A stretch of 64,000 nucleotides of DNA from Heliocidaris erythrogramma (lineage: Eukaryota > Echinodermata > Echinoidea > Camarodonta > Echinometridae): NCBI GenBank assembly GCA_025617745.1, contig CM046855.1, forward strand, positions 40,247,663-40,311,662, written 5' to 3'. The position numbers were made by a program, and so were the translations under genes. Of this stretch, positions 2,519 to 57,899 are shown piece by piece (positions within the stretch are counted from its first letter, which is position 1; the number at the start of each line of letters is the position of its first letter). Below the pieces are notes generated by a model, which did no database searches, was not told the origin of the DNA, and saw nothing but the letters and a program-made list of their open reading frames with translations.

Positions 2519-2717
2519 TCATCGTTTCCGAATTAAATGCTTCGTTTCATCAAGCGATGGTTGTGGCGTATCTTCTAGGGTCTCGAATGGACAAGTCGGC
2601 AACAGAACATCTTGCTTCGGAGATCCTTGGGCTTCATCTTCTTCTTCTGGAATTCGTCTGAGCAGTAAGCAAAATGGTGAAGAGGCGAGAATGGCAATCG
2701 ATAAGCTCCACATAGTC
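2519..2717 (-). CDS. SLC18-like exon 14 (residues 472-537, stop)
   Basis: Encodes TM12 (TMWSLSIAILASSPFCLLL), the RRIPEEE start of a 45-residue acidic/polar cytosolic tail, and a TGA stop. VMAT tails are also acidic. The acceptor is TTGTGTCCTTTAG. Confidence 0.9.
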
Positions 2718-5700
2718 CTAAAGGACACAATGCATTAAAAATGAAGGATCATTAAATATGAAGAGGGGGGGGGGGGGTACATCGCAAATGGAAATGTGAT
2801 GAAAAGGTGAGGAAGATAGCTGTTAGAAAACAGGAATATTTCACCCCTTACCAACATCGTATCATTAAAAATACTGACAATGAACATGCTGAAAGGTGAT
2901 CAGACTTTCGCTCCTGCGACCTTTTCTTCTATAGGTTTATATTTGATCAAAGACTTAAGGGTAAGGGTTGGGGTTGCAAACAGTTTTTAGGGTAGGTTTA
3001 GGGTTACGGTTAGGATCTGTTGGGTCCAGGGTTGTATCTAAGAATTAATTTTCAAAATGGTAGATTTATACCTTTATAACATGGTGGATCCAACAATATG
3101 AAGGTTGGACCGAGCATTTGTAAAAGTGTAAATTTACCATCTTGAAATGTTGTCACTCCTCCAACCTTTTTTAATGCCGATTTAACATTTGATATTCTTT
3201 GAGAGGGTATACCTCCAAAAACTTACCAATTAAATCCAATATAAGTCACAACAGTACCTGAAGTCAGCGTACCTGTGAAGTCAATAGCAGTAAAAGAGTT
3301 TTAATATTTGTACATGTACCATTTTAGAATAGCATATGTCTTATACCACCTCAATTAATGTGCGTTAATTTGATTGCTTAAAATGATCTGTTCTGTGATG
3401 GGACGGAATCTTTCCTCTCCTAAAAATGATTGTCGGCACAAGTGAGTGGCGTTACAATATGTTTAGCTTCTATTTGCCAATGATAAGTTTTTCATAACTT
3501 TCTGGCTCACAGTGAACTAATGTTTTTGTCATGAAAAATGCTTGAAATATACAGGGGCGTCGCTAGAACATTTTGAATGGGGGGGGGGGGGGGTGTGACA
3601 CCCAAATTTGCCAACAAATGTGCTGCACCCTTATCCCCCCCCACAAATAATAATAAAAGATGTGAAAATCTTGATCATATACAGGCCCATTTTCGCAAGG
3701 AGGGGGCTGACGCCCTTTGCCCGGATATCAACATTTCAATTTCTAAATATTTTCGAGCATTTTTGTTTTCATTTTCGTAGTGAAAATGTACAGAAGTTAC
3801 AGACAGACGATACATAATTATCTGGGAGCCTCGCTGTACGGATATATGGATATAATATGCTGGCTCCTCGCTGCTCGAATATGAAGTGATGGTTGCCGAA
3901 TATCTGCACTTTGAAAATCTGCAGCATATTGACGAAGGGAGACGCCTTTTGCCCGAATATTAACTTTCCATTTTTTTTTTTTCTTCCCTTCCCTTTTCCT
4001 TTCCTTCTTTTCTTTGTTTTCGTTTTCATTTGCTTTCCTTTTGGTCCTCCAACTTTTCTCCTTTCCCCTTTGCTCTTCCTTCTGCCGACACCCCCCCCCC
4101 CCAGCGACGCCCCTGAATGTATATGGCATTTGCACCCTCTGTGCTTACCTAAAGTGTACGCGAGGCAAAATTCGAAGACGAAAACGGCGGCTGCCGAACT
4201 ATGCGCACCCTCATGCCAAACGTCAACAATGCGATACATTACTCCGATCACAGTGCTATCAACAGTACCTATTAATGAAGAGAAAGATTGCGATGAATGA
4301 TAAATGAGAATGAATAACAGAGAGAGAAGAAGAGAGGGGAGGGGAGAGAAGGAGAGAGACAGATGGGGGGGGGGGTGGGGGGAGGGGGAGGGGGAATTGG
4401 AAGGGTAAGGGAGAGATATTTGTTTAGTATTAATTATTGCTACTGAATAGTTGTATGCAAAGTACGTCAATAATAATATGACATTATAATGTATAACTTA
4501 CCAAATGCAAAGCCAATTAAGCACATGGAAGGTATCAGCTGCCAGGTCACGTGAGCAAGTGGAAGCTTTGTGAAAAACGTAAAATCACGAATCCGTATTA
4601 ACTACATATCATTACTACTAGTCTACTACTACTACTATTACTACAACAACTACTACTACTACTACTACTGCTACTGCTACTACTAATTTGACAGTGTACT
4701 ATATCAGTAATTTTGTTACTTCAATGCCTAGATTTCCTCAGATTCTCCTGTATTTCATGTCCAATCGATATTCTTTAAAAAATATTAGAATAGAGGTGGG
4801 CTGATTAAAAATAAAGCCCTATATTCAGCTCTTTGTATTGATACAACGTTTAAAAAAAGAAGTATAGAGGGAACACTTACATATTTGTCTTCATATGAAT
4901 TCATACGGATTGAATGCGTCAAAAATTGTACGTCTCCTCTTGAGACGGAATAATGCGTGTTCATTTTCTTACATTTACATGTACGTATTTGCAGAACTAA
5001 AATTTGCAGAACTTTCATTTGCTCCTCAAACGAAAAGCTTTACACCATACAACTCTCAAAAACGGATGCTCCTTTATAGTAATAAATGTTACTAATAATT
5101 GTATTTTAAGAGATGTTTTATATATGTGTAATATCAGGCTATATTAACATGCATAGTCAATAAATTATTCTTACCGTAGAAATGCCGATGACCATAGCTA
5201 ATGCTCCAATGAACATACATCGAAATCTGTATGCATGAGAGCGAGAATAGTTCAATATTTGAGGCTTTTTGACACCATATTAATTTAAACAAGATAACAA
5301 ATATCATCTCTTCAAAGGAGACGATATGAAGAATAATTAATTACTATTGTTACATTAATTCCTATCCGTCATTTCAAATGTTATCGTAGAACGCGAAGTA
5401 AGATGGAATTTTATTGTTTTTGCTTTTACTATCAGATTGAAAAAGATTATACTTTAGGGGTAATTCAGGGTTTGAATGTGTTTTTCGTTTTGAAACTACA
5501 TAAGACAAACTCTATTTTCCTAAATTGAACAAATTTTATTGCAAGGAAATTAGCGAAACGTGTACCTTTTCAATGTTTTATTCCAGTATCCGATAAGAGG
5601 TCCCACTATGATGTGCATGACACTGGTAGGAACGAATATCAGACCTAGAGAAGAAAAGATCATTTCAATCACATCATTCTCTTCTTTTTGTACAAAAACA

Positions 5701-8700
5701 ATCAACTATTGACGTCTAAGTTTGTATAATCAGGGGCGTCGCTAGAGGGGGGTGGGGAGGGGGGGGGGGGGGGTAGAGTACCTTTATATAGAGAGTAGCG
5801 ACATGGACGTTGTAATATGATGGACATGAAGTATCATCAACATTAAGAGTCTTTACAAGGCTGGATTTAGGAACTCAAACTAAGAACAACTTGTTCCATT
5901 TATTAGGTATATGTGAAGCCGCATTACAAACTTTGATATCAATGCTCATGAGCATATGATGTAGATCATAAATTAACATAGATATAAATGACATCATATT
6001 CCAACCCCTCTTCTCAATAAAAGCTTCTTTTATATATATATATACACCGGTACCACAGTTGAATCTTTTCTACATGTTTACTTAAAAAAACATGCAGACT
6101 TAAACTTACATACACATGTACATGTATTTAAATTTGGATATATAATTCAAAGAATTTTATCCCACTTGGATTTCCTTTCACATGCGATATTGTCCTTTGC
6201 TTTTCTTTTTTTTTTAAATACATGTATCATTATCTACCCATCAAATTATTGTATCCCTGTCAACTTTAGTTCTTATATTGGTTTGTAATATAATCGCTGA
6301 AAAAAGATACATAACATATTTCCTGTCTGTCTCTAAAGAGTCTAATAATCAGAAACATTAACACAGTGAATAAACTCTTAATCATATCAATGATTTACAT
6401 ATTGTATCTCTCTGGTTTCTTACCAGTACGACCTGGTCTAGTGGTGTATGGTTCGTGGTGATTCAGTGGTGTGTTTGGTTTGATTTGTGTTTGTTCTGTT
6501 TGTGCATTCTGATTGTATAGTGGTCGTGTACATCATTGTGTCTATCACTATAAGCATGTTGGTGGTTTTGTTGCATGCTGTCCCTCTCTTGGGTTGGTTT
6601 GATGTGTCTGCGATTGCGTCGTAGTGTATGACGTGATGACGCCTGTACTTCGTATGACCTTGGTTCTGGTCTCTTGTTAGTGATCTTTCCTCACTCCCAT
6701 CTACCGGTCTCTTGGTTCTGGACTCTCACTTCCTGTCCTTTGTGTAGTGGGGGAAGGTTGGTAGAATGTTTCTCATCGAAGTACTTTTTCTGGTTATTCT
6801 GCCTGGGCCCATGTGCATAAAAGGCTACTAGTTTAGCTGGCAACTAGTGCTTAGTAAGATTATAAATTCCCTAGTTTATACCTACGGAGTTGGCAACTAA
6901 TTTGTGTTGCATAAAACCTCACTAGGCACATTGCTTACTAGTTGCATACTAGGACAATTTGGTTTGTAAATGCTTTGGGTGCTATGGCCTTGGAGAGGAG
7001 GTGATTATGTCAGATACAATAGGCTCAATCCATATGTGTGTACCATCAACACATCCAATGACCCCTGGAAAGCGTCTCATATTAAAGAAGCCATCCTTGA
7101 ACTCGCCAATAGTATTCTCATCAGGGAACTTGACAAAATCATCCAGTCTCGTACATAATGCAGTGGATCACCAACTACACTATGGAATGTTCCAGTTGCG
7201 TAATACTGCAGCGCAATTAGCACTTGCTGATATGGTAGCAGCGCATGGTTTCTGACAGTGTCATGTTCAATGTCTGGTGCCACTATGTCACTAATGTCCA
7301 TTATGCCTTCACGGGTAAATCTATACCGCTCATACACCTTATCATCATCAAAGAAGTCTAACGGATTTCTCCTGTCTCGGAAGACGCGTTCTTTTCTTAT
7401 TTGACGACGCAGTTCAACTAGATCCATGATTCCACGAGCCATGTTGTCAGGACGGTGTCCAAAGGCAGACTGATTAGTTGTCATCTAGTGACTTAGAGGT
7501 ACCCTAGATTAATTCTAACTTTTGCCAGAATTTTAGAATGTTACTATATCTAGTTGGGTTTTATGCATCACAATTAGTAATCATCTAGGCTTAGTAAGCA
7601 ACTTAAGTCCATTTTAGTTGCCTAGGCCTAGTAGCCTTTTATGCACATGGGCCCTGGTCTGCAGTCTCTGGTAGATGTCGTCTTTTTGGGGTGACTGGTT
7701 TTGAATTCTGGTGGGTAGGTTGGTTTGGATCTTCCTTCCCAGTAACAGCTCAGCTGGAGATGGTAGATGGCTGTCCAATGGAGTGGCTCTCAGGCATTGT
7801 AATGCCTTGTTGGCGCCTACATTGTCTCTCTTGGCTTTCATCATAGGGTAAACTGGGGGAATATGGAGCCCTTAAGCACAAAATGATATTTTTGAACATG
7901 TAACAAACATTCTTTTCACTTCTCTCTTTTACTGGTGGAAGAACTATTTATTGCCTACATAAAATCACTAAAGTTAAAAAAAATAATTGTCTTGTATAAA
8001 TAAAAGACAAAATCGAGATCCATATTACCCCAATGAACGGGGTAATATGGAGCCCATATACCAAGATTTTGGTATATAATTAACAATTAATTTTTTTAAC
8101 AAGTGAAAGTTCTCTTCAAACTATAAATTATACATCATGTAATGATTATAACTACACAACAGAACAATACTGCAATAGCCATCAACAGTCTGTGCATGTA
8201 CACATTGATAACACTACCCTTGTACCATGGTAATATGACTGTAATTCAACCAAATTACCATCAAATCATGGTAATTTGGTTGAATTACCGTCACATTACC
8301 ATGGGTACTATGGTACTTTTTTACAAGGGTATATCCATTGTATAGAATGCTGCATGTTTACAAGGGGCTCCATATTACCCCAAAGATATTGTGGCTATGT
8401 AAATGGATTGTACAGGCCATTCACTCAACCATGATCAATACACGTGCACTCAACACCAGTATACAACCCACATTATGCACTTATTATGATACAATCAAGA
8501 TATGATTACGCAAAGTAGGTTTACAACAGCAATCTTTACATGTTCGGGCTTATAAGGAGCCAAAAAATGGCACGAAAATCGCTTACCTTTCTCAAATATG
8601 TTGGATTTTGTTGTGGATATCCGAGACCTACCAACTAACTTCGTGTTTACAGAGCGGCAGTGGGTGCAACAGGTCACATGACAGGCATTTAAACCACAGA

Positions 8701-14700: not shown

Positions 14701-17700
14701 CATAAATTAACATAGATATAAATGACATCATATTTCAGACGTCTGGCTTTTCTGGAAACAAAATGGCGTTTGAATTCTTTGAGAACACCCAGGTGCTCAT
14801 CGGAATTGATGAGAAATGTTGCATAGCAGTGGAAACAAAATGGCGTTCAAGTCATGAGTTTTCGCTACTCTCTTTATTTTACTTTAATAGGGGGGGGGGG
14901 AGGTCACACCCCCACTCAAAATTTCTGTCGGAAAATGCACCACCTCTGTCGGCAAGAAAAAAAAGGAGGGAAAAAAGAGGGAGGGAAGAGGAAAGGGAAA
15001 AGGAGAAAAGTTAAAGGAGAAGAAAGAAGAAAAAAAGGAAAGAAAAGGAAAACAAAAACAAAAACAAAAAAAATCGGGCAAAAGGCGTCCCCCTTCGGCA
15101 ATAGGCTGCAGATTTTCAAAGTTGCGATATTCGGCAACCACCACTTCATATTCGGGCAGCGAGGAGCCAGAATATCCACATATTTTTACATATAATTATG
15201 TAACTTCTGTCTGTACTTCTGTACTACGAAAAGTGAGAAAAAAAATTGCTCGCTCGCTTCGCTCGCTCGCAAATATTTACAAACTAAAAAGTTGATATTC
15301 AGGCAAAGGCGTCCCCCCTTCCCCCGAGGATTTTTAAAGTTCCGATATCCGGACAATCGCCACTTCATATTCGAGCAGCGAGATTCCCAGATAATCATAT
15401 GTAACTTCTGTTTGTAACTTCTGTACATTTTCACTACGAAAAGTAAAAAAAAAAATTGCTTGCTCGCAATTATTTAGAAATTGAAAAGTTTATATTCGGG
15501 CAGAAGGCGTCCCCTTTGGCAATGGGCGGCAGCCCCCCCCCCCCCGGATTTTCAAAGTTCCGATATTCGGGCAACCACCACTTTATATTCGGGCAACCAC
15601 CACTTTATATTCGGGTAACCACCACTTTATATTCGGGCAGCGAGGAGCCAGAATATCCACATATTTGGGCAGAGAGGTTCCAGATAATTATGTAACTTTT
15701 GGGTGTCACACCCTAAAAATGTGTCAGCATATTTGGGTGTCACCCCCCCCCCCCCCATTCAAATACTACTGGCGTATCCGGGGTTCTATATTAAAGGCAT
15801 TGGGTAACTTTGTGGAGGCTTGATTTAATAAATTGTTGAATTTTGATATCTGTCTTGTATAATGATGTTCAGAATAATAAATAAATAGCCAGGCATACAA
15901 AGGTTTTCAAATATATAATGCTATTATTAAGATATCTGCGACTGAATACTCCCATTTACGAAAGCGTATGGCCATACGCTTTAGTCTAACACTGAGTCAA
16001 TGGGGAAAATGAGTCTGGCATTTTCCGGTCACTTGCATATGTTTACTTTTGTGAAGCACATGATGATTTTGAAGTGCTTTTTGCCACATGGGCTTCATTT
16101 TTACACCATATTACATACACTGATAACATGTAAGGCCAGACAGCTCAGATTTTATCAATCCTCCACAAAGCTACCCAATCACTTTAAAGTCAAAGTCAGA
16201 AAATATCTGACAAGCAAAATAAGAAAAGAAACGAAAATTAAAGTGACTTTGCAGGTTTACAAAAACCTTTTTTGTACTAAAGGTTGTTATTATGAGTGGG
16301 TTTTAAAGGAGAGAGGATATGGGTGGTTTGTGCCCCTTCCCCCTTTATCCACAACTGCTTGTTACATGATAGTCTTTTCACGTTCATACCGATTTGCCAT
16401 TCTGGTGTGTTGAACGTCGATCGAACCCAGATTGGTAGTGTTGCATTAGCGAAAGCTATTCCCATTGTGGTCAGTAAAGCCAGAACTACATATGAAAAAA
16501 AAATATATATATATCTATATTTATATACACAGTATACATGCATTATGTAATGGAAATTAAGCAAATCATTTTGAATTAGAATCAACTTCAAGTCGAGTAA
16601 CAAGATGACATAAATGCAGACTCATAGGCTTTTTTCATTCCTTGTGAAAGTAAACTTTTTGATTTTGTTTCAAAGTAGAATAAAATTTACTCGATGGATG
16701 AAATACAAGGCCATTGATTAACTTGAGACCGTGGGAGAGGGTACTATCTCTCACTTTTCTTTTTTTTTCTCTGTTTTTTTACCTCTTTATAGTTTCTCTT
16801 TTTTTCGTCATCCGTAGCCTGCAGCCACACCACTGCCCAAGGTCAAACTACAATCTACAAATCTACAATCCAAACTTACATCAGTTTTATAGGTAATAGA
16901 ATAGCGTATTGAAATCACCCTCGAGTTGATTACTTGAAAGTGTTTGCGATCATGTTTGATGATCTATCATGCCCCTATTCGTTCGCCACAATAACATACC
17001 GGAGACCAATAAGGTGTATGGATTCATGACGAAGCTAAGAACAGATGAACGCCCCTCAATAAAAGCAGGTCGTATGTCCGCAGGTACGAGAATTGGAATA
17101 AGCACTGTGAGTAGAAAAAAATACGTAAGTAAGGCCTACGGAAGTTTCATCAAATTATTTGTCTATGATTTCTCGCTGTCTGTAATTGTAATGTACATAT
17201 CACGGCATATTTTTTAGTGGTACGTATGCATCAAAATGATAAAATATTGATGGAAATGATACGAAATTCACCCTTGGATGTATCTTTTGATGATCATCTT
17301 GATGATCATGGATCACTCATGTAGCATTTGTTAAAGATATTGTCTTGAAGAATATTGGTTCATCAGCAGACAGCGCTTTGTCTTGCATGCCAGATATACG
17401 GTTCTAGGACTCCTACCCCCTGGACAACCACCCCCCGGATAACCACCCCTAGGATAACCACCCTCTAGGACAACTACCCCCTAGGGCAACCACCCTCTAG
17501 GACGACTACCCCCCTAGGACAAGTACCCCCCGGATAACTACCCCCCAGACAACTACCCCCTAGGACAACCACCCTCTAGGACAACTACTCCCCGGATAAC
17601 TACCCCCGGACAACTACCCCCCGGACAACTACCCCCTGGACAACTACCCCCTGGACAACTACCCCCGGACAACTACCCCCGGATATCTACCCCCCGGACA

Positions 17701-20700
17701 ACTACCCCCCGGACAACTACCCCCTGGACAACTACCCCCCGGACATCTACCCCCTGGACAACTACCCCCTAGGACAACCACCCTCTAGGACAACTACCCC
17801 CTGGACAACTACCCCCGGACAACCACCCCCTAGGACAACTACGGGGGGTAGTTGTCCCTGGGGGTAATTGTCCGGGGGGTAGTTGTCCAGGGGTAGTTGT
17901 CCAGGGGGTAGTTGTCCGGGGGGTAGTTGTCCGGGGGGTAGTTGTCCGGGGGGGGGGGGGTAGTTATCCGGGGGGTAGTTGTCCTAGAGGGTGGTTGTCC
18001 TAGGGGGTAGTTGTCTGGGGGGTAGTTGTCCTAGAGGGTGGTTATCCTAGGGGTGGTTATCCGGGGGGTGGTTGTCCAGGGGGTAGGTGTCCGGATACGC
18101 AGATATACATGTATACCTCTTTTTAAAGCCTAGACGTAACTTGCATGCAAGTAACTTACGCCCAAAATATCTAGATAATTTTAGGAAATGAAACATACCA
18201 ACACACGCAAGTAATGTAGCCGACAGAATCAGAAATGGAGCAGGTTGGCCTACTAATCCATACATAACAGAACCTAAGGTTGGACCAACTGGAGAGAGAG
18301 AGAGAGAACATAAAAAGAAAGTAGGTATGGTAGGAGAGGGAATGAAAATGGAAGAAAACGCAAAAAAGATCTTTATACTTCATGATCGTTTACGCTGAAA
18401 ATCACAACTTATAATATTATTATCGTTTTGATTTAATATTATAGATCTCTATCGTTTGTTCAAGTGCTTTTGTTTTTCATAATTTTCATTGTCTGTACAT
18501 ACACGGTTGATATCGATACAAAACTATGCTCAGGGCCCTGTTTCATAAAACATGTAATGCCAGAGATCTATGACAAATCTGCTCATAGCCAATCGCATGT
18601 AAGAATTTCAGTAGCTTATAACAATTATTGGATCTTGTTATTGGTAACAAATTTTATGAAACAGGGCCCAGGTATCAGGGAGATGTGAGCTGGTCTAGCG
18701 GTAATGTCCGCGGTCAGCTCTCTGTCTTCGTCTAAAAACTGATCGGATTCGGGTTCGAAACTGAGTCACGTCTTTCGGATGGTGACGTTAAAGGTCGGTC
18801 CCAGACGCAAATCGTATCTGATTGATATACGTCTTTAATAATTCACTGACACACAGTACGTTGTCCTTAAAACTTCAACACAAAACGGACAGTTAAAACA
18901 TTCATTACAACTGTGAAACTGCAGGATGCTATATACGCGCATGTATTCTCCCTGTTGGTGAGTCATCAAAGATATAGGGTCAGGGCTAGTTACTGATAAG
19001 TTTTATGAAACGGGACCCAGATGATGCACTATAGGTCAGTATAGAATTTAAACAAGAAAGTACTGGCTTCCCTACATAATTATAAGGGCAGATCCATGAT
19101 GGTAAGAAAGGGTGATAAGCCGAAAGAGCATTTTTTTCCCCATCACATGATTTTCATAGGTCTTACCATCGCTAAACTAAGATTGGGGTGGTTAGTAAAT
19201 GAAGAAGCTTGATGGGAGGAATTTTAATTTGTAAACATTTTACTCCCAGTGTTAAAGATCGTATGCTCGATCTGTAATGAAAAACACAAGTCAGAAAAAT
19301 TGGAACCAGCGGGATTCGAACCTGTCATCTACTGCTTGCCGGGCAGCGACTTAACCACCAGGCTATTCTGGTTCATGGCCAAGTCCTGGCCAAGTCATGG
19401 GGTAGGGGTGGCAAAGAGCTATTTCCCAAAATATTTTTTCTTAATGGAGAAGTGGTGTTCCCTCGGTCTCCTAAATCTGCCCGTGTTTCCTTTCGTTCTT
19501 TTCTTGCCTTTCAAATAAAACAATTCAATACTTACTAAGAGTTCCGAAGGCAAAACCACTGATGACCAAGCCGAGAACGAATCCCTTCTTTCTCTCGTCA
19601 TCTCCGTATCTTACAGCCAAGTAAGAAATACCTTTTACGAAATAGAGGAATGGCAAAAAGATAATCATCGACAATTATATTTTGTAATCCTTTAGAAAAA
19701 ATTGGTGGAGTAGAACTATGAAGGTCTAAAGGTCTAAAGAAAAATACCCTCAAAGACATTTCGAAGGGGCAAATCTGCTCAAACAATAATTTACACATCC
19801 CATTTCTTGGAAACTATTGAACTCAAACATTTAGCTTATGACACGTCCCTTTCACATTTATATCGGCCTATTAGTAGGGATATTTTTATCATCAATTTCG
19901 TAGACAATGGTTCGATTATTTTCAAACTGATAGAAAACGGCTATAATGAACATTGAGCAAAGTGCTTGAAAATAATCTATCCCGCTTACTGGATGCATAT
20001 CAAGTCGGTACAAGGATATTTTACTTGTCTTGTTTCTTGTTGTTTTTTTTTGTCTATGCAGCACTTTTCTCAATTTTGTTTTGTTTATATTATGCTGTAA
20101 AAATATGCTGCGTTAGCCCTAAATTTTAAGTTTGATAATTTTATTTCAGTTATATCCATATATTAACAGCAAATAATTTACAAAGACTTTCAGTTTAGAA
20201 AAAATCATTATGAGCATAGAAAACATTAAGAATGAAATCTGGCACTAAAATTCAGTTTTAAAACAAAATTTCCGTTGTAATTGGTAAGTATATAAATGCT
20301 AGCTGTCTTGTGGAGGAAACCTTGGAAAGCAAAGCTTGTAATTCAGGTTCCATATAACATAGATATCAGAGTATCATTTAATAAAACAAGAGCATCAACA
20401 GGATATAAAACGACACACGATGCAAGACCACACAGATATGCTAAAATGTGCAGTGTGTTTCTTAACGTATGGGACAAAATACCTTTGACTTGTTGCTCAC
20501 ATCACTAAAGCCACCAAAACTTTGATACTTCGATCTCATTTTGATGTCTCTGAATTATTGTCTTACAATAATTGTTTTTAATGCGTTCAATTAACCTGCG
20601 ATTTCCATTCCTGTTCCGCCAATGCCGTGGAATGCTCGCGATAAAAATAGAACGACAAGGGAGTCAGCAAAGGCCATCACTGTAATAAAAAAAAAAAAAA

Positions 20701-23700
20701 TAAAAAATTATTGTGCTTTAATATTACTTTTTGTGATGATTCAGCCGATAATAACAATTCCCAACTGATGAAACGGTGTGCGCTCAAAGCCTTCACAAAA
20801 AGTAAAATTATTCCACATACAAACTTCTCACATTTAAAGTTTCGTGAAAATGAATTGAGTTGACTTCAACTTTTAGACCAACAACCTGTTTGAAATTAAA
20901 GTACCTCGGAGAATAAAGGAAGGGAGCCGAGAGAACGAGAAAGACAGAAAAAGACAAATCACATACAAGCAAATGGACAAAGAAAACCGGTGAAAGAAAG
21001 AGAGGGAGTGGGGGGGGGGGGGGGTGAAAGCATTACGATGAATAAATATTAACACAAGTGAACTTAAACATCAAGAATTCTTACTGAAGCTAGCGGTCAG
21101 AGTGAATAGTGTGCTGAAGAAAAACGGCCAAAATAACCCAATTCTGAAAGAGAAATGTCCATTAAACAAGTATTAATTATAGGCACAATTGGATAATGCA
21201 AAATTAGAAGAGCCCCAGTTCACTCATTTTTATTCTGATTCATGGATGATTCTTCCCAAAATTCCTGTAGTATCGTCGAGCTTTTGTCTTCATCTACTTT
21301 AATTTATAATTGTATTTCAGTCTGGTAATCAGTATGAAGGATGCATTTATATTCATTGGGGTAAGGCATATTATAGGCAAGAGAAGCAATAATTATCTCA
21401 GATCATTTTTGTGAAAAAAAATTGTCCACCTGTTCCGCCCTATGTTGAAATGATTGTCACTTCATTTAATTTGTTGAGACATTTTGTAAGAAAATATACT
21501 TCAAATTGGAAGATTCTAGCATTATGACTGGCAATTTTTATATATTTTTTAATTGTTATAAAGCATCGTTGCATGATGCACATATTAGCGAATCCAGGGG
21601 GGGGGGGGGGTGGGCAGAAAAGGCACGTACCCCCACCTCATATAGGGTCCAAAACCTTACAGTTTTTGTTACTCTCAGTGATAGTCCAGACATGTACTCC
21701 CAGCCCTGTCAAATTATCCTGCATCTATTGATACAATACAATACATAGAGAAGTGGTCTAGTGGATACGTCACCAGACTGTGGATCACGCGGTACGGGGT
21801 TCAAATCCCTGCCACATCCCTGTTCAGGACCAAGTTGTGAAACAGATTTACTTATATATCTGATTCTTGTTATCCTGAAGAAATATATTTTAATAAAATA
21901 AAATGATTGTTATTAGTATTATCATTATCATTATCGTTATCATAAACATTATCAATGTATATTATTATAGGTTTTTCCGCCCAATTTCATATTTTTGTCA
22001 CTCAAGGTGACATTCAAGGTGCATTCAAATTCACGCATTATCGTCTTACGATTGATACCGGTCTTTCAAATTTAAAATCCGGGCAATGGAATTAATTTGG
22101 AGACACGCGAATTAATTTATGAGCAAGAAAATTATTTAAGTTAAGGGTATTCCAATTTTTGTTATCCGCATTCGATTCATTTTTTTAGGGCAAAAAAGAA
22201 AATCGTTAACCTGCATACGAAGTCGTGAACGTACATATAAGGGCGTTGAATTTCGAGGTTCGTGCATTCCAATTTTAACAGTAGGCTTGAGGAGCCTGTT
22301 TGAGCAATCGATTTCATTTTGTGGAATTCAAGTTATTTATTAGTTTACTAATATGGATTCCGTATGTTTGTATGTGTTCTGTGTGCGTGTTTATGTTTTT
22401 TATCTTATCACTCTACATAATGTCTATATTTATGCATGTCTATGTGTGTGTGTGTAATAATAATAATAATAATAATATTGGGTATTTATAAAGTACCATT
22501 TCCATTACGCAAACTGCTCAAGGCTCTGTAAAAGTACAGTAAAACAGAGTACAAGAAATTGAGATAAAGAAACAAAATGAACAACACAGATACAATGAGG
22601 AAATATGAGAAACATTGGCAAATTAATCAAATACAGTTTTGAACAAGTGTGTTTTTAGTGAAGACTTGAAAGAGTTTAGAGTTGATATGTCTTTAAGAGG
22701 CTGTGGTGGCTGATTCCAAAGAGTTGATCCTGCACATGCAAATGATCGATCACCTCATGATACATACTTGCATGTGCTTCATGTGCCATAATATATCCTC
22801 TTTTCGTTTATGGGATTTCGAATTGTTGCCTCATTATACAAAGTCATTCGATTTCGAAACTTTTCACATTTTTATGATGTTTACAATGACAGTATGATTG
22901 TTAAGTTCTTTGCTTGTTTTTATCATTGTTCTTTTTATATATTCTGGAAGGTCTGTTTTTAATAATTGCATGATATTTTGCACGTTTTCTTAACTACATG
23001 TGTGTTTAATCTATTGCACTTATTTAAAACGGTTCGGTGTAAAAATGCCAGAGGTAAAAATGCCAGAGGTAAAAATGCCAGTGGTAAAAATGCCAGTGGT
23101 AAAAATGCCAGAGGTAAAAATGCCAGAGGAAAAAATGCCAGAGGAAAAAATGCAAGAGGTAAAAAATGCTAGTACCCCCCCCCCCCCCCCCCCCCCCCGA
23201 TATAGCATGCATGTATTGTTTGCCACTCGCTTTCAGTTGACGACCCTTTTTGTTAAAAACTTCAATATTATATTTTTTTTTCACTTATAATTCAGTTTGA
23301 ATATATCTGCATCTTGTTCAACTTAATGTGCATGAGCCCCCTCCCCCTTCCCCTATTAATGTTGACGAGGCCGTAATGCTCGATGTTTGTGTGACGGTCT
23401 GTACATTTGCTGAAGAAGGGAGGAATGAAAAAGAAAAAAAAAAAGTGCAGGTACAAGTACAGATAACGAAAAACAAACTAGTCAAGATAATTTGGTACAA
23501 GTTATTTTACTACAGGTACAGGTATTGTGTCCTTAAGTTATACAGTAAAGTATCATGATGCGGGGGCATTTCGTTTTTCCGAAGGTTCGTATTTCAGAAA
23601 CACTAATTTCCCATGCCTGGAGGTACAAAATTCCGAACATTGGTTGCATTATTCTGAAGGTTCGTTATTCCGAAGGTTCCAAAGGTTCATAATTCCGAAA

Positions 23701-38700: not shown

Positions 38701-39270
38701 GAACCTATTTCATTTTCGGAATTACGAACCCTATTCCATTTTCGGAAATACAAACCTTTGGAATTACGAGCCCTCTTTCATTTTCGGAAAAACGAACTTC
38801 GGAATTACAGACCTTTGGAGTAACAAGCCTTCGGAAATACGAACCTTTGAAAAACCGGCATGTAACCATTAAAAAAAATATTATTATTATTATTTTTATT
38901 ATTATTATCATTATTATTATCACCATTATCATAATTATTATTCATATGTTCTCACTTGTCGATGAGCAAGCTGGCAGGAACAGTCAGCAAGATCCTCATC
39001 ATGAATTTGGTTGCCAGGAGTAACCCGTTTTGGAAACTAAGTTCCTCATGACACTCGTGTAGTAAAGGAGCTAAGAGAGAGTCTCGACTGGACCAGGTTG
39101 TGTTGGAGGGTGGGGTGAAATCCTTGGGACTGTCAGTTGACTCGGTTTGTTCCGCCAAGCATTCTGATAGGTTCGATGGGTCTGTTCGTGCTACCTGATG
39201 GCACATGGAACGATACACATTCCTGTAACAAAGATGGAGCAGAATTTCGGGAGACACTGGGACTGTATTG

Positions 39271-39301
<31 letters not shown>

Positions 39302-45300: not shown

Positions 45301-46401
45301 GATTAACGTCTTGCCAAAGGACGCTAGTGCTGCGGTGGGATTCGAACCCCGGACCTCGTGGTTCACAGTCCGGGGACTTATCCACTGATCCACAACACCT
45401 CTACAAAAAATATTACATTCGAGCTTGCGTGAAATTGACAATTACATTTACGTCTGTTGAGAGCCAGAAGGGCGTTAACTCTGTGTTAAAGTATATGAGT
45501 TAACGCCCTTCTTAATATGAATATCTTTCTTTGACTGCCTATATTGTTTTTGCAATGATCTTCCGTTTTGCAAATCGAATTCAATTTGGCTAGATGGTAA
45601 AATGGTTTAGTATATAAACAACAAAATCCTCCACATTAACCAGTTATTCTGTTTCGGTTTAGTATTACAGCTGGACTTGACTGCTCTGAATTAGATGTCT
45701 GATTATATTTACTTTTGCCGTTTACAAATAATCGGACAAAAATGTCTAATCAAAATAATACCAAACAAAACATGACGGAGTGTTTTTGAGCGTGATTGGC
45801 TGAGCATGGATACGAGCATAATATTTTCCATCACAGTAAGCATTATGAAACGTCTACTGAAAAAGGGTGGGGAGGGTGACTGAAGCCCCCCCCCCCCTCC
45901 AGTTCCTGGGCTCCTGGAATTAGACTAGTATTGCCTGTCGGTAGTCAAATACAGTGAAGTCAGATTACATAGAAAAGGATGGTTGACAAACTTTTTAGGA
46001 TGACTGCATGCCTTGAAAATACAAATACAAAAAAATACTGTTCTTGAATAATAAATTGATATCAACAAACTTCCTCATGACTTAAGGAATAACGGTTATT
46101 TGGTGTTTAAAGAAAATAATGTTTTTTCATCGTGCCTGATTAATACAGCAGTCACACCACCAAAATGTTTCAAAGCGACCAATTCATGGCCAGTCGGGGT
46201 AATGCAATTTTTCGTATGGTCTGTCGGTCTGATGTCAGTCCCGTTGGCGTGACCAGGGTTATAAAAGATGTACTCACCGACAGCGGTCATGAAAGCTTCG
46301 TTGGCAATGAACGAAATGAGAACGAGGACCGTCGAAAAAGTTCGATTGTTTTGAAGGCGATCCAGGCAAAATCTCCGCCGAAAAAAGTCAGACGACGGCA
46401 T
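2519..46401 (-). CDS. SLC18-like vesicular transporter (MFS), complete 14-exon gene
   Basis: Fourteen coding exons joined by GT/AG sites give 1614 nt, 537 residues and a TGA stop, with every junction in phase. The product is a 12-TM major facilitator protein resembling vesicular monoamine/acetylcholine transporters (proton-driven vesicle loading). Seen: TM1 about 23-45; a long luminal loop with N-glycosylation sequons at Asn53, Asn112 and Asn135; TM2 with GLLLATK (Lys167); SRAFHGIGGT; RYGDDERKK; TLIGPTLGSVMYGLVG (motif C-like); MGIAFANATLPIW; GTVDST (Asp420); and a charged tail. VMATs are 515-530 residues, so the length fits. Asn34 replaces the TM1 aspartate and other pocket positions differ, so the substrate is uncertain. 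The start is the first ATG of exon 1, just before TM1. Neither the 5' non-coding exons nor the poly(A) site could be placed. SLC18B1 is a less likely alternative because the match to SLC18A motifs is closer. Confidence 0.92.
2718..3226. other. Intron 13, no gene seen
   Basis: AT-rich intron with a poly-G tract at 2766-2777 and a degenerate GGGTTAGGGTT-like stretch at 2955-3020. The latter is not a regular telomere array. Confidence 0.5.
3227..3272 (-). CDS. SLC18-like exon 13 (residues 457-471)
   Basis: A 46-nt exon encoding TLTSGTVVTYIGFN, matching GPSAGGAIAKAIGFPW. The acceptor is TTGACTTCACAG and the donor GTAAGT. It is needed to bring exon 12 (phase 1) into the phase of exon 14. Confidence 0.88.
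3552..4115. mobile_element. hAT-like non-autonomous element with poly-G ends
   Basis: Terminal inverted repeats CAGGGGCGTCGCTAG and its complement (one mismatch), 8-bp flanks GAAATATA and AATGTATA matching at 5 of 8 sites, and a poly-G tract just inside each end. The internal DNA is pyrimidine-rich with no transposase. Same-family starts (CAGGGGCGTCGCTAG, CAGGGGCGGCGCTAC) occur at 5733 and 35704. It lies in intron 12, 34 bp from exon 12. Confidence 0.7.
4149..4268 (-). CDS. SLC18-like exon 12 (residues 417-456)
   Basis: Encodes GTVDSTVIGVMYRIVDVWHE and then a TM11 ending EFCLAYTL. This matches GMVDSSMMPIMGYLVDLRH...FCMGYAIG. The TM10 aspartate (VMAT2 Asp399) is kept as Asp420. The donor is GTAAGC. 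A 564-bp hAT-like repeat begins 34 bp beyond the exon end. Confidence 0.9.
4502..4538 (-). CDS. SLC18-like exon 11 (residues 405-416)
   Basis: A 37-nt microexon-like segment encoding LIPSMCLIGFAF, matching GLI.PN.GVGFAIG. The acceptor is GACCTGGCAG and the donor GTAAGT. It is too short for an ORF finder; it was placed by phase and homology. Confidence 0.85.
5175..5226 (-). CDS. SLC18-like exon 10 (residues 387-404)
   Basis: A 52-nt exon encoding FRCMFIGALAMVIGIST (TM9), matching RWLCALLGM..VG.S. The donor is GTAAGA and the acceptor CATACAG. Confidence 0.88.
5566..5644 (-). CDS. SLC18-like exon 9 (residues 361-386)
   Basis: Encodes LIFVPTSVMHIIVGPLIGYW and then NKTLK, matching VAFLPASISYLIGTNIFG.L..K (TM8). 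The acceptor is TTTTCTTCTCTAG and the donor GTACAC. His371 lies where VMAT2 has Tyr341. Confidence 0.9.
5733..5800. repeat. hAT-like terminus plus poly-G tract
   Basis: CAGGGGCGTCGCTAG followed by a G-rich run to 5773, the same edge as the 3552-4115 element. The matching other end was not found. Confidence 0.45.
5818..6000 (+). repeat. Dispersed direct repeat, copy 1
   Basis: About 180 bp, roughly 95% identical to 14547-14735. Starts TGATGGACA and ends near CATCATATT. The two copies flank the Gypsy fossil and other insertions. Whether they are its LTRs or an unrelated repeat is unresolved. Confidence 0.7.
6806..7653 (-). mobile_element. PIF/Harbinger element, internally deleted
   Basis: Perfect long TIRs beginning GGCCCATGTGCATAAAAGG, 3-bp target duplication CTG (6803-6805 and 7654-7656), and Harbinger transposase remnants inside. 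At 848 bp it is too short for the full transposase plus the Myb-like partner gene. It sits inside the integrase end of the Gypsy fossil. Confidence 0.9.
6982..7484 (-). pseudogene. Harbinger transposase fragment (HARBI1-like)
   Basis: The first frame (7484 to about 7155) reads MTTNQSAFGHRPDNM, RNPLDFFDDDKVYERYRFTR and LPYQQVLIALQYYATGTFHS then GD, the usual N-terminal half. The reading then continues one frame over as DDFVKFPDENTIGEF and RRFPGVIGCVDGTHIWIEP, which contains the first catalytic Asp of the DDE domain, and stops at 6982. There is thus a frameshift near 7155, and the rest of the DDE domain is missing. Confidence 0.85.
7846..8784. mobile_element. TA-flanked DNA transposon, non-autonomous (Tc1/mariner-like)
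   Basis: TIRs of about 25 bp (GGGTAAACTGGGGGAATATG...) with TA duplications at 7844-7845 and 8785-8786. Internal subterminal copies of GGGGTAATATGGAGCCC occur near 8039, and its complement near 8365. No transposase frame. The 939-bp element interrupts the integrase of the Gypsy fossil. Confidence 0.85.
8217..8329. mobile_element. Nested foldback MITE with TA flanks
   Basis: CCCTTGTA/TACAAGGG ends, TA on both sides (8215-8216, 8330-8331), and long arms pairing almost throughout (ACCATGGTAAT, TTCAACCAAATTACCAT). It lies inside the 7846-8784 element, itself inside the Gypsy fossil. Confidence 0.75.
9638..10340. other. Unassigned stretch within the Gypsy span
   Basis: A poly-G tract at 9876-9891 and G-rich phrases such as CCGGGATAGGGGG repeated at about 10025-10140. 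No recognisable retrotransposon domain; it may be an inserted low-complexity repeat. Confidence 0.4.
11519..12976. mobile_element. 1.46-kb TIR/foldback element (hAT-like, uncertain)
   Basis: Ends CAGTGTAGTAAAATCACG and its complement, with further inner matches around CGTTATAACG. A second large inverted pair (about 12095-12190 and 12755-12838) contains the GCGAGCGAAGCGAGCC motif. Flanking 8-mers GCATTCAT and TTATACAT match at 5 of 8. No transposase. It hosts the CACTA MITE at 12515-12750. Confidence 0.7.
12515..12750. mobile_element. CACTA-type MITE, copy 1
   Basis: Ends CACTATGAACATGGCGAAC and near-complement, with nearly the whole element self-complementary. The 3-bp duplication TCG (12512-12514, 12751-12753) is confirmed by the uninterrupted inverted copy of the host sequence near 12165-12180. 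The CACTA end plus 3-bp TSD fits the EnSpm/CACTA superfamily. Confidence 0.85.
13628..14349. mobile_element. GC-rich PIF/Harbinger-type MITE
   Basis: TIR TGCCTAGTTCACATTTG, 3-bp duplication TAA (13625-13627, 14350-14352). The interior is much richer in GC than its surroundings and dense with CGTGCG/CGTACGG/GTGCGAT words on both strands. Open frames inside are composition artefacts. Confidence 0.8.
14547..14735 (+). repeat. Dispersed direct repeat, copy 2
   Basis: Second copy of the 5818-6000 repeat in the same orientation. A 6-bp insertion and a few substitutions separate them. Confidence 0.7.
14885..15770. repeat. Composite of hAT-family fragments with poly-G/C ends
   Basis: Several partial copies of the repeat phrase 'TCGGGCAGCGAGGAGCC', 'CACCACTTCATATTCGG' and 'TATGTAACTTCTGT', with a short triplication at 15575-15645 (GGGCAACCACCACTTTATAT). 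The same phrases occur inverted at 3660-3960, so these are relatives of the 3552-4115 element. Confidence 0.6.
15771..16389. other. Intron 8 end, no feature recognised
   Basis: AT-rich DNA with no repeat or exon that I can support. Confidence 0.4.
16390..16485 (-). CDS. SLC18-like exon 8 (residues 329-360)
   Basis: Encodes LALLTTMGIAFANATLPIW and then a TPEWQI end, matching FANMGIAMLEPALPIW...KWQLG (TM7). The positions of VMAT2 Asn305 and Glu312 appear as Thr335 and Asn342; the Trp of PIW is kept. The donor is GTATGA. Confidence 0.92.
17000..17104 (-). CDS. SLC18-like exon 7 (residues 294-328)
   Basis: Encodes the central cytosolic loop and the start of TM7. The ending VMNPYTLLVS matches LLKDPYILIAAG of VMATs. 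The acceptor is TTTCTACTCACAG and the donor GTATGT. Confidence 0.9.
17408..18092. repeat. Minisatellite that inverts at its centre
   Basis: Left half (17408-17840): about 14-16-bp units of the form CCCCGGACAACTAC. Right half (17841-18092): the complement, GTAGTTGTCCGGGG, in the other direction. The turning point is AACTACGGGGGGTAGTT. The whole can fold as one long hairpin. It lies in intron 6, starting 107 nt downstream of the exon 6 donor. Confidence 0.9.
18199..18288 (-). CDS. SLC18-like exon 6 (residues 264-293)
   Basis: Encodes GPTLGSVMYGLVGQPAPFLI and then LSATLLACV, the best-conserved block of the family (VMAT: VGPPFGSVMYEFVGK.APFL). The acceptor is CTCTCTCCAG and the donor GTATGT. Confidence 0.93.
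18534..18668. mobile_element. Harbinger-type MITE with CAG target duplication
   Basis: Perfect TIR GGCCCTGTTTCATAAAA and complement, 135 bp, with 3-bp duplication CAG (18531-18533, 18669-18671). Shares the GGCCC terminus and C-W-G type duplication with the element at 6806-7653. A half-related end (TTTTATGAAACGGGACCCAG) lies at 18998-19019. Confidence 0.8.
18684..18860 (+). mobile_element. tRNA-headed SINE
   Basis: A-box-like TGGTCTAGCGG and B-box GGTTCGAAAC, then the body ACTGAGTCACGTCTTTCGG and GGTCGGTCCCAGACG shared with the 7SL-like-headed copies at 26370, 31820 and 57755. Confidence 0.75.
19293..19385 (-). mobile_element. tRNA-like SINE head
   Basis: On the minus strand: AGCCTGGTGGTTAAGTCGCT (A box) and GGTTCGAATCCCG (B box). 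The cloverleaf stems, notably the T stem, do not pair well, so it is a SINE head rather than a working tRNA gene. Confidence 0.5.
19536..19631 (-). CDS. SLC18-like exon 5 (residues 232-263)
   Basis: Encodes ISYLAVRYGDDERKKGFVLG and then LVISGFAFGTL, matching the family's A.RY.DD.ER loop and TM5 start. The donor is GTAAGT. The acceptor, CGTAAAAG, is weak in pyrimidines but is fixed by phase and homology. Confidence 0.9.
20596..20679 (-). CDS. SLC18-like exon 4 (residues 204-231)
   Basis: Encodes MAFADSLVVLFLSRAFHGIG followed by GTGMEIA. This is TM4 with the conserved R...GIG pattern; the Arg aligns with VMAT2 Arg189. The acceptor is TTATTACAG and the donor GTTAAT. Confidence 0.9.
21085..21143 (-). 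CDS. SLC18-like exon 3 (residues 185-203)
   Basis: A 59-nt exon encoding IGLFWPFFFSTLFTLTASF (TM3). The acceptor is TTTCTCTTTCAG and the donor GTAAGA. It directly continues SLLIDK of exon 2, matching the TNRIGY...FAGF region of VMATs. The intron before it is 17.8 kb. Confidence 0.88.
21745..21960 (+). mobile_element. tRNA-derived SINE with AT-rich tail
   Basis: A-box TGGTCTAGTGG and B-box GGTTCAAATCC 50 bp apart, then a short body (CTGATTCTTGTTATCC) and an (ATT/ATC)n tail. The tail part is repeated at 27172 just after the gap. Confidence 0.65.
22454..22760 (-). mobile_element. 5'-truncated LINE 3' end with (ATT)n tail
   Basis: The minus strand reads DRSFACAGSTLWNQPPQPL then SFKSSLKTHLFK, the C-terminal signature of non-LTR ORF2, then a GCTCAAGG..TTTATAAATACC end and (ATT)7. 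Lies in duplication copy A; its twin is at 27786-28100. Confidence 0.7.
23040..23198 (+). repeat. 15-bp minisatellite (AAAAATGCCAGAGGT) plus poly-C tract
   Basis: Nine units with G/T and T/A variants, then a 22-base C run. A few inverted units (CTGGCATTTTT) lie 700 bp downstream at 23870-23930. Twin at 28375-28532. Confidence 0.9.
23565..23715 (-). repeat. Small array of the TTCGGAAATACGAACC family
   Basis: Starts with the conserved edge GGGGCATTTCGTTTTTCCG and has about seven degenerate AAGGTTCG.ATTCCG units. Twin at about 28895-29048. Confidence 0.65.
24570..25275 (+). repeat. TTGGTCTAAT-core degenerate array 1
   Basis: About 40 units of 14-18 bp, core (T/C)(T/G)GGTCTAAT or TTCGTCTAAT joined by short variable spacers (ATCATCA, AACCA, TATCA). 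A poly-G tract lies 80 bp before it. No coding frame. Confidence 0.85.
25430..25990 (+). repeat. Pyrimidine-rich low-complexity stretch
   Basis: Long CT-rich DNA with recurring CATCTTTC and TTATTCTTT words. Hydrophobic open frames here are composition artefacts. A twin lies at 30890-31440, an inverted relative at 32770-33055 and others at 37620-37900. Confidence 0.7.
25997..26330. mobile_element. CACTGTAAAAAA-ended transposon fragment (copy A)
   Basis: Begins CACTGTAAAAAATAACTG and is full of CTGTAAAA/TTTTACAG words. Followed directly by a SINE. Its continuation with similar words is seen after copy B at 32265-32455. Confidence 0.55.
26370..26612 (+). mobile_element. SINE with 7SL/Alu-like head (copy A)
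   Basis: Head GGGCGTTGTGGCGTGCGCC then CTGTAATCCAGCTAC resembles the 5' Alu domain of 7SL RNA. It is followed by a B-box CAGGTTCGAGACTG, the body CGTCTTTCGGATGGTGACG and a (CA)n-rich end whose last unit is repeated. Confidence 0.7.
26666..27165. other. Assembly gap (500 N)
   Basis: Exactly 500 N, a usual placeholder for a gap of unknown size. The open frame across it is meaningless. Confidence 0.99.
27786..28100 (-). mobile_element. 5'-truncated LINE 3' end (twin in duplication copy B)
   Basis: Near-identical to 22454-22760, including the LWN..LKTHLF coding end and the ATT-rich tail. Confidence 0.7.
28375..28532 (+). repeat. 15-bp minisatellite plus poly-C tract (twin)
   Basis: Copy B of the 23040-23198 array with a slightly different order of variants. 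Inverted units at 29328-29375. Confidence 0.9.
30028..30722 (+). repeat. TTGGTCTAAT-core degenerate array 2 (copy B)
   Basis: Near-identical twin of the array at 24570-25275. Confidence 0.85.
31460..32460. mobile_element. CACTGTAAAAAA-ended transposon with inserted SINEs (copy B)
   Basis: Left end CACTGTAAAAAATAACTG, right part rich in CTGTAAAA words up to ATTTTTTAACAG near 32451. One full and one rearranged SINE copy (31820-32190) sit in the middle. No transposase frame. Confidence 0.55.
31820..32190 (+). mobile_element. SINE with 7SL/Alu-like head (copy B, rearranged repeat)
   Basis: Same head and body as 26370, then a second partial copy from CTGTAATCCAGCTACC at about 32038 with a doubled GTGACGTTAAAGG. 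Confidence 0.7.
32461..33060. other. Repeat-rich gap without genes
   Basis: Includes GCGAGCGAGCGAGCGAAGCG at 32583, a G/C-rich phrase at 32720-32750 and a purine-rich inverse of the CT-rich stretch. No gene seen. Confidence 0.5.
33480..33640 (-). repeat. TTGGTCTAAT-core array 3, inverted
   Basis: About ten units reading ATTAGACCAAATGGT, the complement of arrays 1, 2 and 4. A 20-base poly-G tract precedes it at 33303-33322. Confidence 0.8.
34200..34745 (+). repeat. TTGGTCTAAT-core array 4
   Basis: About 32 units; one 50-bp segment (CATTTGGGCTACACCTAC...) is duplicated exactly near 34477 and 34524. It follows a poly-C tract at 34004-34027. Confidence 0.85.
34760..36640. other. Intron 2 segment, no gene seen
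   Basis: AT-rich DNA with a GCGAGCGAGCGTAGCGAGC motif (35510), a hAT-like start CAGGGGCGGCGCTAC (35704), (ATT)n at 35846-35920 and poly-C tracts at 35967-35982 and 36096-36110. Confidence 0.5.
36640..37100 (-). repeat. TTGGTCTAAT-core array 5, inverted
   Basis: About 28 units of the form ATTAGACCAAGTGGT. It merges into another degenerate array at 37145. Confidence 0.85.
37145..37388 (+). repeat. TTTTACATTTGTGG degenerate array plus poly-C tract
   Basis: About nine units of 20-27 bp around TTTTACA(T/C)TTGTGG, ending in a 23-base C run at 37366-37388. Confidence 0.75.
38462..38850 (+). repeat. 26-bp array 1 (TTCGGAATTACGAACCC)
   Basis: About 12 units of 25-27 bp followed by shorter 14-17-bp units. 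Preceded by CT repeats and followed by (ATT)n. The unit length is not a multiple of three and has no stop in this direction, so frames stay open by chance. Confidence 0.9.
38956..39262 (-). CDS. SLC18-like exon 2 (residues 82-184)
   Basis: Encodes the rest of the long luminal loop, with sequons NLS and NTT and several cysteines, and then TM2 with GLLLATKFMMRILL. The acceptor follows a pyrimidine-rich CTCTCTCAATACAG and the donor is GTGAGA. It is phase 1 in and phase 2 out. A second possible acceptor inside the exon (TTGTTACAG) would shorten the loop, but it needs a phase that exon 1 does not supply. Confidence 0.88.
39270..39340 (+). repeat. (GA)n microsatellite
   Basis: AGAGAGAAAG repeats next to the exon 2 acceptor of the SLC18-like gene; on the coding strand this gives a strong pyrimidine tract. 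Confidence 0.85.
39670..43190. repeat. Long unit marked by spaced TTACGGAATGAC motifs
   Basis: The motif or one-to-three-base variants occur near 39686, 41301, 41518, 42545, 42706 and 43176. Edges read GGGCATTTCC...TTACGGAATG (left) and TTACGTAATGCCC (right), suggesting inverted ends. No transposase frame. May be a large non-autonomous transposon holding the 58-bp repeat. Confidence 0.45.
40399..40690 (+). repeat. 58-bp tandem repeat, five copies
   Basis: Unit with core GACGACGAACGACTCACCG followed by CTTCGTCACGTCTTTTCTG. Starts at about 40400, 40458, 40516, 40574 and 40632, the last diverging. It sits in a C/T-rich region (40040-40920) with no recognised gene. Confidence 0.9.
43290..44170. 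repeat. Mixed decayed repeats
   Basis: GCGTGCGAAATTGG/AGCACGCGAAGCGTGC phrases and a pair of related G-rich segments near 43880 and 44050 (GGGTGGGTGCAGGGAGG and AATTTGAGAGAAA). No gene seen. Confidence 0.4.
45045..45408 (-). mobile_element. Full-length tRNA-derived SINE
   Basis: Minus strand: tRNA head (A box ATCAGTGGATAAG, B box GGGGTTCGAATCCC), body with GTGTTAAATGGGTACCCGG, and a tail GGCGCGTTATAAATGCC then (ATT)4. The tail resembles that of the LINE end at 571-965. Confidence 0.85.
46158..46401 (-). CDS. SLC18-like exon 1 (residues 1-81)
   Basis: Holds the start ATG (46401-46399), a basic cytosolic N-terminus, TM1 and the start of the luminal loop (NGT sequon). It ends in phase 1. The donor is most likely GTGTGA after 46158; a GTGGTG donor three bases earlier keeps the same phase, so the exact edge is slightly ambiguous. 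Confidence 0.88.
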
Positions 46402-49110: not shown

Positions 49111-49831
49111 ACATCCCATGTATTCAAAAGTAAGGAGGAGAACATGATAAAATCGTACAGAAAGAAGGACTCGCTAAAGAGAGAGAAGAAAGCTTGAGAG
49201 TGAAGTGAATTACTTTGTAAAAGTGCCCCTTCCCCTTTTGATCTCTGATAAGCGCCCAGTTTATTTTGTCACGTGCCCCTTTGCAGTCGACAATTTCCCA
49301 ATTTCCTTTGAAATAAGTGTCCATTTCCGTTCTCATAAGTGCCCATTATAATCTGTTGTAAGTGCCTGTTTTCTTGGCGCCCCTCCCCCACTTTGAAAGT
49401 CACTCGGTCGCCCCTGAAGAAGACTAGACTACAAGCAAACCACCTCAGCCCCCCCCCCCCCAGAAAAGAAATAATATAATTGTCTGACATGTTAATGCCA
49501 GAGTCGTCACTCAATATAGTAGACGAGGGAGGGGAGGGGGCAATTCATATGTAATGACGTATTTCTTTTGTAATATCTATATTTTCATGACAGTTCACGT
49601 CAGGCTTACTCCTCGTTTGTTTCGTTCCCTTCATTGTATTTTTTAAAATTTGGTTCGGCTATTTAAAGTCGGCCAAGTCTAATTTATTATTTATCATTCG
49701 TGTGTGAACCTGTATACATGTATCGGGCCAGTAACTGGGATTTTCAAGAGGGTTCAAACTAAAAAATAGTGGACCTTTCTCAGTGAAGCGACGAAGGAGG
49801 CTATAGGGTCTGAGAAGGGTATATTTTTAGG

Positions 49832-50293
49832 GGGCATCTCGTTTTTCCGAAGGTTCGTTTTTCCGAAGGTTCGTATTTCCGAAACACTAATTTCCCATGC
49901 CTGGGGGTTCATAATTCCGAAAATGAAAAAGGGTTCGTAATTCCGAACATTTGTTGCATTATTCCGAAGGTTCGTTATTCCGAAGGTTCGTTTATCCGAC
50001 GGTTCGTTTATCCGAAGGTTCATAATTCCGAAAATGAAATAGGGTTCATATTTCCGAAGGTTCGTATTTCCGAAAATGAAAAAGGGCTCATAATTCCGAA
50101 GGTTCGTATTTCCGAAAATGAAAAAGGGTTCGTATTTCCGAAAATGAAAAAGGGTTCGTATTTCCGAAAATGAAATAAGGTTCGTATTTCCGAAAATGAA
50201 AAAGGGTTCGTATTTCCGAAAATGAAATAGGGTTCGTATTTCCGAAAATGAAATAAGGTTCGTATTTCCGAAAATGAAAAAGGGTTCGTATTT
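49832..50293 (-). repeat. 26-bp array 2 (TTCGGAAATACGAACCC), inverted
   Basis: Starts with the edge GGGGGCATCTCGTTTTTCCG, short units first and 26-bp units after. The open frames (up to 207 residues) are repeat translations. Confidence 0.9.
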
Positions 50294-57893: not shown

Positions 57894-57899
57894 CCATGC

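Follow-up and report, generated by a model that had tools for sequence, protein, structure and literature searches.

The minus strand of the window (the whole 64,000-nucleotide stretch of DNA analysed here) carries a complete SLC18-like gene whose 506-aa product retains, as D389, the aspartate that holds the amine in VMAT2, with the VMAT2 membrane carboxylates D33, E312 and D426 all replaced. Judged from the sequence, the protein is probably an uncharacterised variant of the vesicular amine-pump kind, a vesicular cation transporter.

Gene structure and surroundings

Motif and tblastn scans of the window placed the gene on the minus strand; a plus-strand gene was ruled out, as the motif scan of that strand returned no SLC18-like stretch. 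Phase-compatible exon joining yielded 14 coding exons leading from an ATG at 46401 to a stop codon at 2519 (-) (Table 1). All 13 introns are GT..AG with compatible phases, the reading frame is intact over all 14 exons with no internal stop, and tblastn of the protein against the window found no second SLC18 copy within its 64 kb. The interval 4149-46401 proposed by a sequence-only reading of the same DNA has the correct start, but the gene ends at 2519, and exons 13 and 14 (3272-3227 and 2717-2519), which encode the tail and the last part of the membrane domain, were missed. Exon 3, the weakest by similarity, bears none of the residues discussed here; it ranked at the top of 223 phase-compatible candidates, scoring 26 vs 24 for the runner-up and 18 for the best other candidate whose splice sites are good.

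Table 1. Coding exons of the SLC18-like gene, with codon positions of selected residues and the equivalent VMAT2 sites unless VAChT is named. The TM labels are assumed, being carried over from VMAT2 by alignment.
Exon	Interval	Strand	Content	Residues	Basis
1	46278..46401	-	ATG, N-terminus, TM1	N34 46300-46302 (D33); E35 46297-46299 (N34)	splice sites, phase, codons, alignment; residues in 48/48 settings
2	38956..39262	-	TM1 end, luminal loop 1 with two sequons (N72 and N95), TM2 start	K127 39006-39008 (K138); R131 38994-38996 (Q142)	
3 (59 nt)	21085..21143	-	about TM3		similarity score, splice sites
4	20596..20679	-	SRAFHGIGGTGMEIAG, TM4	R178 20636-20638 (R189); H181 (Q192); E189 20603-20605 (S200, VAChT D193)	
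5	19536..19631	-	TM4-TM5	T222 19540-19542 (V232, VAChT S225)	
6	18199..18288	-	GPTLGSVMYGLVG aligned with VMAT2 GPPFGSVLYEFVG (TM5); also TM6		
7	17000..17104	-	TM6 end and central loop		
8	16390..16485	-	TM7	T295 16466-16468 (N305); N302 16445-16447 (E312); W308 16427-16429 (W318)	
9	5566..5644	-	TM8	H331 5613-5615 (Y341, VAChT H338)	
10 (52 nt)	5175..5226	-	TM9		
11	4502..4565	-	TM9-TM10		
12	4149..4268	-	TM10-TM11	D389 4258-4260 (amine-holding D399); V416 4177-4179 (D426); E418 4171-4173 (A428); Y423 (Y433)	
13 (46 nt)	3227..3272	-	TM11-TM12; outside the earlier interval		
14	2519..2717	-	TM12, tail with acidic stretch, stop codon; outside the earlier interval	DVLL dileucine-type motif 2600-2611	

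Intron 2 contains a 500-N gap (26666-27165) whose flanks, 21852-26602 and 27170-32036, are direct copies of nearly 5 kb, 98.2-98.3% identical and free of exons; the simplest view would be that they are uncollapsed allelic contig ends. Retroelement remains occupy intron 8 (16389-5645), including an integrase ORF (rve + H2C2) and a sub-threshold gag-like ORF at 8723-9406 (-) and 10647-11192 (-). A 135-aa ORF at 7080-7484 (-) has no Pfam match and resembles a PIF/Harbinger-type transposase fragment. The ORF at 57854-58462 (+) encodes an RNase H domain and probably derives from a retroelement, and that at 59718-60113 (+), which opens with a signal-peptide-like start followed by INIDGKLDDDAWQEVPRSDRF and has no Pfam match, may be exon 1 of a neighbouring gene arranged head to head. 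FRKYEPYFIFGNTNPFSFSEIRT-like peptides from a simple repeat family recur at 38308-38823 (+), 49754-50449 (-) and 54080-54850 (+). No tRNA or Rfam element was detected in the window.

Family membership and residue map

Comparison with PDB sequences by phmmer returned VMAT1 at E 3.8e-60, VMAT2 at 1.9e-58, VAChT at 1.9e-38 and SLC18B1 at 3.4e-5; every one of the 17 PDB entries with a match at E up to 1 belongs to SLC18. Pfam assigned the 506-aa protein to MFS_1 (PF07690) at 3.9e-40. By its MFS fold and its nearest similarity to SLC18 members, the protein belongs to SLC18 in the broad sense, and the SLC18-like identity given by the sequence-only reading is borne out; kinship to VMATs is clear. Three other identities were set aside: the Pfam OATP match fell under its cut-off; the seven NCBIfam families matched at E up to 0.001 are all MFS and all fell under their curated cut-offs; and SLC18B1 as nearest relative is rejected by its E value of 3.4e-5 vs 3.8e-60 for VMAT1.

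Over aligned columns, identity is 32.8% with VMAT1 (a partial sequence lacking most of loop 1), 29.2% with Xenopus VMAT2, 28.4% with human VMAT2, 23.7% with VAChT and 20.0% with SLC18B1; on the same basis VMAT2 and VAChT share 37.8%. Measured in this way the protein is nearer to the VMATs than to VAChT, yet it scores 179-207 bits against VMAT chains, for which human VAChT reaches a higher 314-350. Trees of seven rows, one of them UNC-17, were computed under two models (LG and a mixture). The UNC-17 sequence, used here and as a fifth reference below, is assumed to be correct. Five AU tests over three groupings (with the VMATs, with the VAChTs, outside both) rejected none of them in the seven-row tree; p-AU was 0.695 (mixture) and 0.478 (LG) for the VMAT grouping and 0.49 (mixture) and 0.123 (LG) for the VAChT grouping. 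The LG tree set the protein outside VMAT+VAChT with a support of just 52/22, and in it two long branches, those of the 506-aa protein and SLC18B1, meet.

Fifteen polar-network sites were mapped in 48 settings that varied the matrix and the gap cost, and 14 of the 15 received the same partner in all 48; the unstable one, N388, fell on M378 in 39 settings and on S377 in nine. At the stable sites, VMAT2 D33 and N34 of TM1 become N34 and E35; K138 of TM2 is kept as K127 and Q142 becomes R131; R189 of TM4 is kept as R178, with H181, G185, T186 and E189 standing for Q192, S196, S197 and S200; N305, E312 and Y341 of TM7/TM8 become T295, N302 and H331; and in TM10/TM11 D399 is kept as D389 and D426 becomes V416. 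In one alignment the equivalents of W318 (W308), Y433 (Y423) and the E127 of VMATs are also kept, V232 is replaced by T222, and the otherwise conserved TM10-TM11 stretch LVDxRHVSVYGSVYAIAD is mostly replaced as well. A GPxxGS stretch is present in TM5. In terms of the features that define SLC18A transporters, the amine-binding TM10 Asp is present (D389), as are the TM2 Lys and TM4 Arg (K127 and R178); the TM1 Asp (D33), TM7 Glu (E312) and TM11 Asp (D426) are all missing, and the VMAT pair Tyr341 and Asn305 is represented by H331 and T295.

The sequence-only reading had anticipated much of this map. The replacement of D33 and E312 by Asn, of N305 by Thr and of Y341 by His holds in 48/48 settings, as do the loss of D426, where Val is found, and the retention of K138, R189 and D399; that of W318 was found in one alignment, and the Glu that it saw two positions after the D426 site is there, as E418. 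Its number N34 was correct, and its K167, T335, N342, H371, D420 and E449 were 31 to 40 too high, the correct residues being K127, T295, N302, H331, D389 and E418. E35, E189 (at S200) and R131 (at Q142) had been overlooked. It had also held that an acidic residue aligned at the Asp33 site would overturn it; N34 occupies that site in 48/48 settings, and the next residue is a Glu, E35.

The specificity residues follow neither relative. The VAChT set Y50, M51, S225 and H338 corresponds to M38, T39, T222 and H331, of which just the His matches, H331 being the VAChT state at the VMAT2 Y341 position; the VMAT2 set L37, T38, V232 and Y341 faces the same four residues in one alignment. Taken by its residues, the set M38, T39, T222, H331 is thus neither VMAT nor VAChT but mixed. 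A C-terminal dileucine-type motif has a role in sorting, and the DVLL of the short tail (residues 477-480), which matches the VAChT DVLL in one alignment and not in another, hints at a vesicular location.

The network sites did not show a significant excess of divergence. Among sites invariant in four references (VMAT1, human and Xenopus VMAT2, VAChT), 3/13 network sites were kept vs 53/134 others (Fisher p=0.37), and with UNC-17 as the fifth reference the counts were 3/13 vs 47/112 (p=0.24). Because the network sites did not change significantly more than other family-invariant sites, general drift is possible.

Proposed transport mechanism and its alternatives

As the structural reports describe it, serotonin or dopamine in VMAT2 places its amine on D399, with N305 (PMC12721464, PMC11405867, PMC10770148), and the same Asp (D399/D407/D398) recognises the amine in all three SLC18A members (PMC11369146, PMC12721464, PMC11405867, PMC10770148), the contact with ACh in VAChT being weak at 4.8 A (PMC11369146). 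The ring hydroxyl is bound by N34, E312 and Y433, and histamine takes a reversed orientation with its amine on E312 (PMC12721464). D33 is reported to lie relatively far from the substrate and to serve as a hinge and a site of protonation (PMC12721464), and simulations let it touch dopamine's hydroxyls, not the amine (PMC10959523). The sequence-only reading had cast Asp33 as the amine contact of VMATs, a role that these reports give to D399.

D33, E312, D399 and D426 are reported as proton-site candidates; D33N, E312Q, D399N and D426N lose uptake in human VMAT2, with D33N, E312Q and D426N each losing both dopamine and serotonin uptake, while N305A keeps 17% and N305D 70% of uptake and Y341F is inactive (PMC12721464). 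VMAT2 N34D transports serotonin slightly less than wild-type, and its DTBZ binding was reported as not detectable (PMC10959523). In the account given for VAChT, the non-conserved specificity residues are Y50, M51, S225 and H338, N47 contacts the ACh acetyl group, D193 may take part in proton-coupled movement, and vesamicol binding is unaffected by E309Q and D425N (PMC11369146).

Against this background we favour, with moderate confidence, a proton-coupled vesicular antiporter for organic cations, which keeps the main amine anchor, has a rewired proton network and mixes specificity residues of the VMAT and VAChT kinds. The fold family, D389, the K127 and R178 of the TM1/TM2/TM4 network, the Trp gate W308 and GPxxGS are its basis in the sequence. 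A transporter of the major facilitator fold so equipped would most likely take up an organic cation from the cytosol in exchange for protons from the lumen; the amine of that cation would sit on D389, with T295 and H331 (the latter as in VAChT) beside it. The carboxylates of D33, E312 and D426 being gone, their role in proton coupling may have moved to E35, at the VMAT2 N34 / VAChT N47 position that is described as contacting the substrate at its far end, and to E189, at VAChT D193; E418, two residues from the D426 site, would by helix geometry point away from the pocket. On this account, substrate choice would be unlike that of VMAT2 and probably would not cover classical monoamines; tetrabenazine binding is not expected. 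The tolerance of VMAT2 for an acid at N34 (N34D, PMC10959523) speaks for the antiporter, and two results speak against it: the loss of E312, reportedly a second amine site, and the non-significant divergence of the network sites (p=0.37 and p=0.24), by which the changes may be overall drift. The rewired network itself is an assumption, because loss of E312 or D33 alone is reported to stop uptake by VMAT2.

It is unlikely that the gene is simply a fast-evolving VMAT orthologue that loads ordinary monoamines, with E35, E189 and E418 compensating and substrate choice unchanged. VMAT1 and VMAT2 are its best matches, the equivalents of D399, K138, R189, W318 and Y433 are kept, the VMAT grouping was not rejected (p-AU 0.695 and 0.478), and in VMAT2 N34D is described as nearly normal (PMC10959523) and N305A and N305D retain part of the uptake (PMC12721464). 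However, E312Q and D33N lose monoamine uptake and Y341F is inactive according to the same source (PMC12721464), the Y341 site here is a His, V232 and N305 differ too, and the protein scores 179-207 bits against VMAT chains, for which human VAChT gets 314-350. That the protein belongs with orphan SLC18 proteins of invertebrates (insect Portabella is one) or with the outgroup SLC18 of sponges and choanoflagellates seems unlikely: the LG tree does place the protein outside VMAT+VAChT, but with a support of just 52/22, with its long branch meeting that of SLC18B1, and with the other placements not rejected. Both kinds of sequence are on record, Portabella being described as a VMAT/VAChT relative (PMC8566550) and SLC18 sequences being reported as outgroup to the VMAT/VAChT clade (PMC10244343).

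The sequence-only reading proposed that the protein carries something else or works differently. The second part is supported, because D33N, E312Q and D426N are reported to lose VMAT2 uptake and all three sites are neutral here; the reason offered, Asp33, is not. Also in its favour, E312, the reported histamine-amine site of VMAT2, is lost. Transport of a non-amine (an anionic or uncharged solute, for instance), or operation without proton coupling, is nevertheless improbable in our estimate: three of the four VMAT2 carboxylates D33, E312, D399 and D426 are replaced, the histamine-binding E312 included, and basic or His residues are at hand (K127, R131, R178, H181, H331), but the amine-holding Asp is kept as D389, and new glutamates stand at a substrate-contacting position (E35) and in TM4 (E189). 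Because these two are newly present, acidity has moved rather than simply been lost. That the gene is decaying or an assembly artefact is highly improbable, since the frame is complete in 14 exons with no stop, the introns are 13/13 GT..AG and the exons lie outside the duplicated stretch, against which stand the gap in intron 2 with its 98% identical copies on both sides and network sites without excess conservation.

Within the favoured antiporter, a more specific and doubtful proposal is that the TM1 carboxylate has moved by one residue, from the proton and hinge site (D33) to the substrate-facing N34 position. D389 and E35 would then form a two-ended acidic pocket suited to a dication (a diamine or agmatine), with E35 and E189 taking over proton coupling, and the protein might serve an undescribed invertebrate route for a vesicular transmitter.

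One membrane-carboxylate set is common to human VMAT1, VMAT2 and VAChT and Xenopus VMAT2 in one alignment, and single neutral changes in it are reported to stop or reduce VMAT2 (PMC12721464, PMC11405867). A complete relative with three of the four carboxylates replaced and the amine anchor kept is a natural test of proton coupling vs substrate choice, and an SLC18-like gene of this kind may point to an as yet unassigned vesicular transmitter. Pattern searches for homologues gave 25 and 63 matches in viral contigs and 20 and 174 in genome contigs, none confirmed, and no match in phages, which says little on animals because the collections searched hold prokaryotes and viruses. In the open-licence literature searched, no paper title pointed to an SLC18-like protein with these residues.

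Comparison with other SLC18 proteins

With VMAT1 and VMAT2 the protein shares equivalents of D399, K138, R189, W318, Y433 and E127, whereas their D33, N34, N305, E312, Y341, D426, Q142, S200 and V232 are replaced. The protein resembles VAChT in the His at the Y341 position (H338), the acid at D193 (E189), the small polar residue at S225 (T222) and the amine Asp D398, but VAChT D46, N47, Y50, M51, E309 and D425 are not kept. One passage gives VAChT a Phe at the W318 position (PMC10959523); contrary to that passage, one alignment made here shows Trp in human VAChT and Phe in SLC18B1. Portabella, an insect SLC18-like orphan, is described as a relative of VMAT and VAChT (PMC8566550).

SLC18B1, the vesicular polyamine transporter, likewise lacks the TM1 Asp and the D426 acid in one alignment, and its Ser in place of the former shows that an SLC18 member can lack the TM1 Asp. 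In the same alignment its remaining pattern is the opposite of the one described here, with an acid at E312, Tyr at Y341 and a gap at the D399 column.
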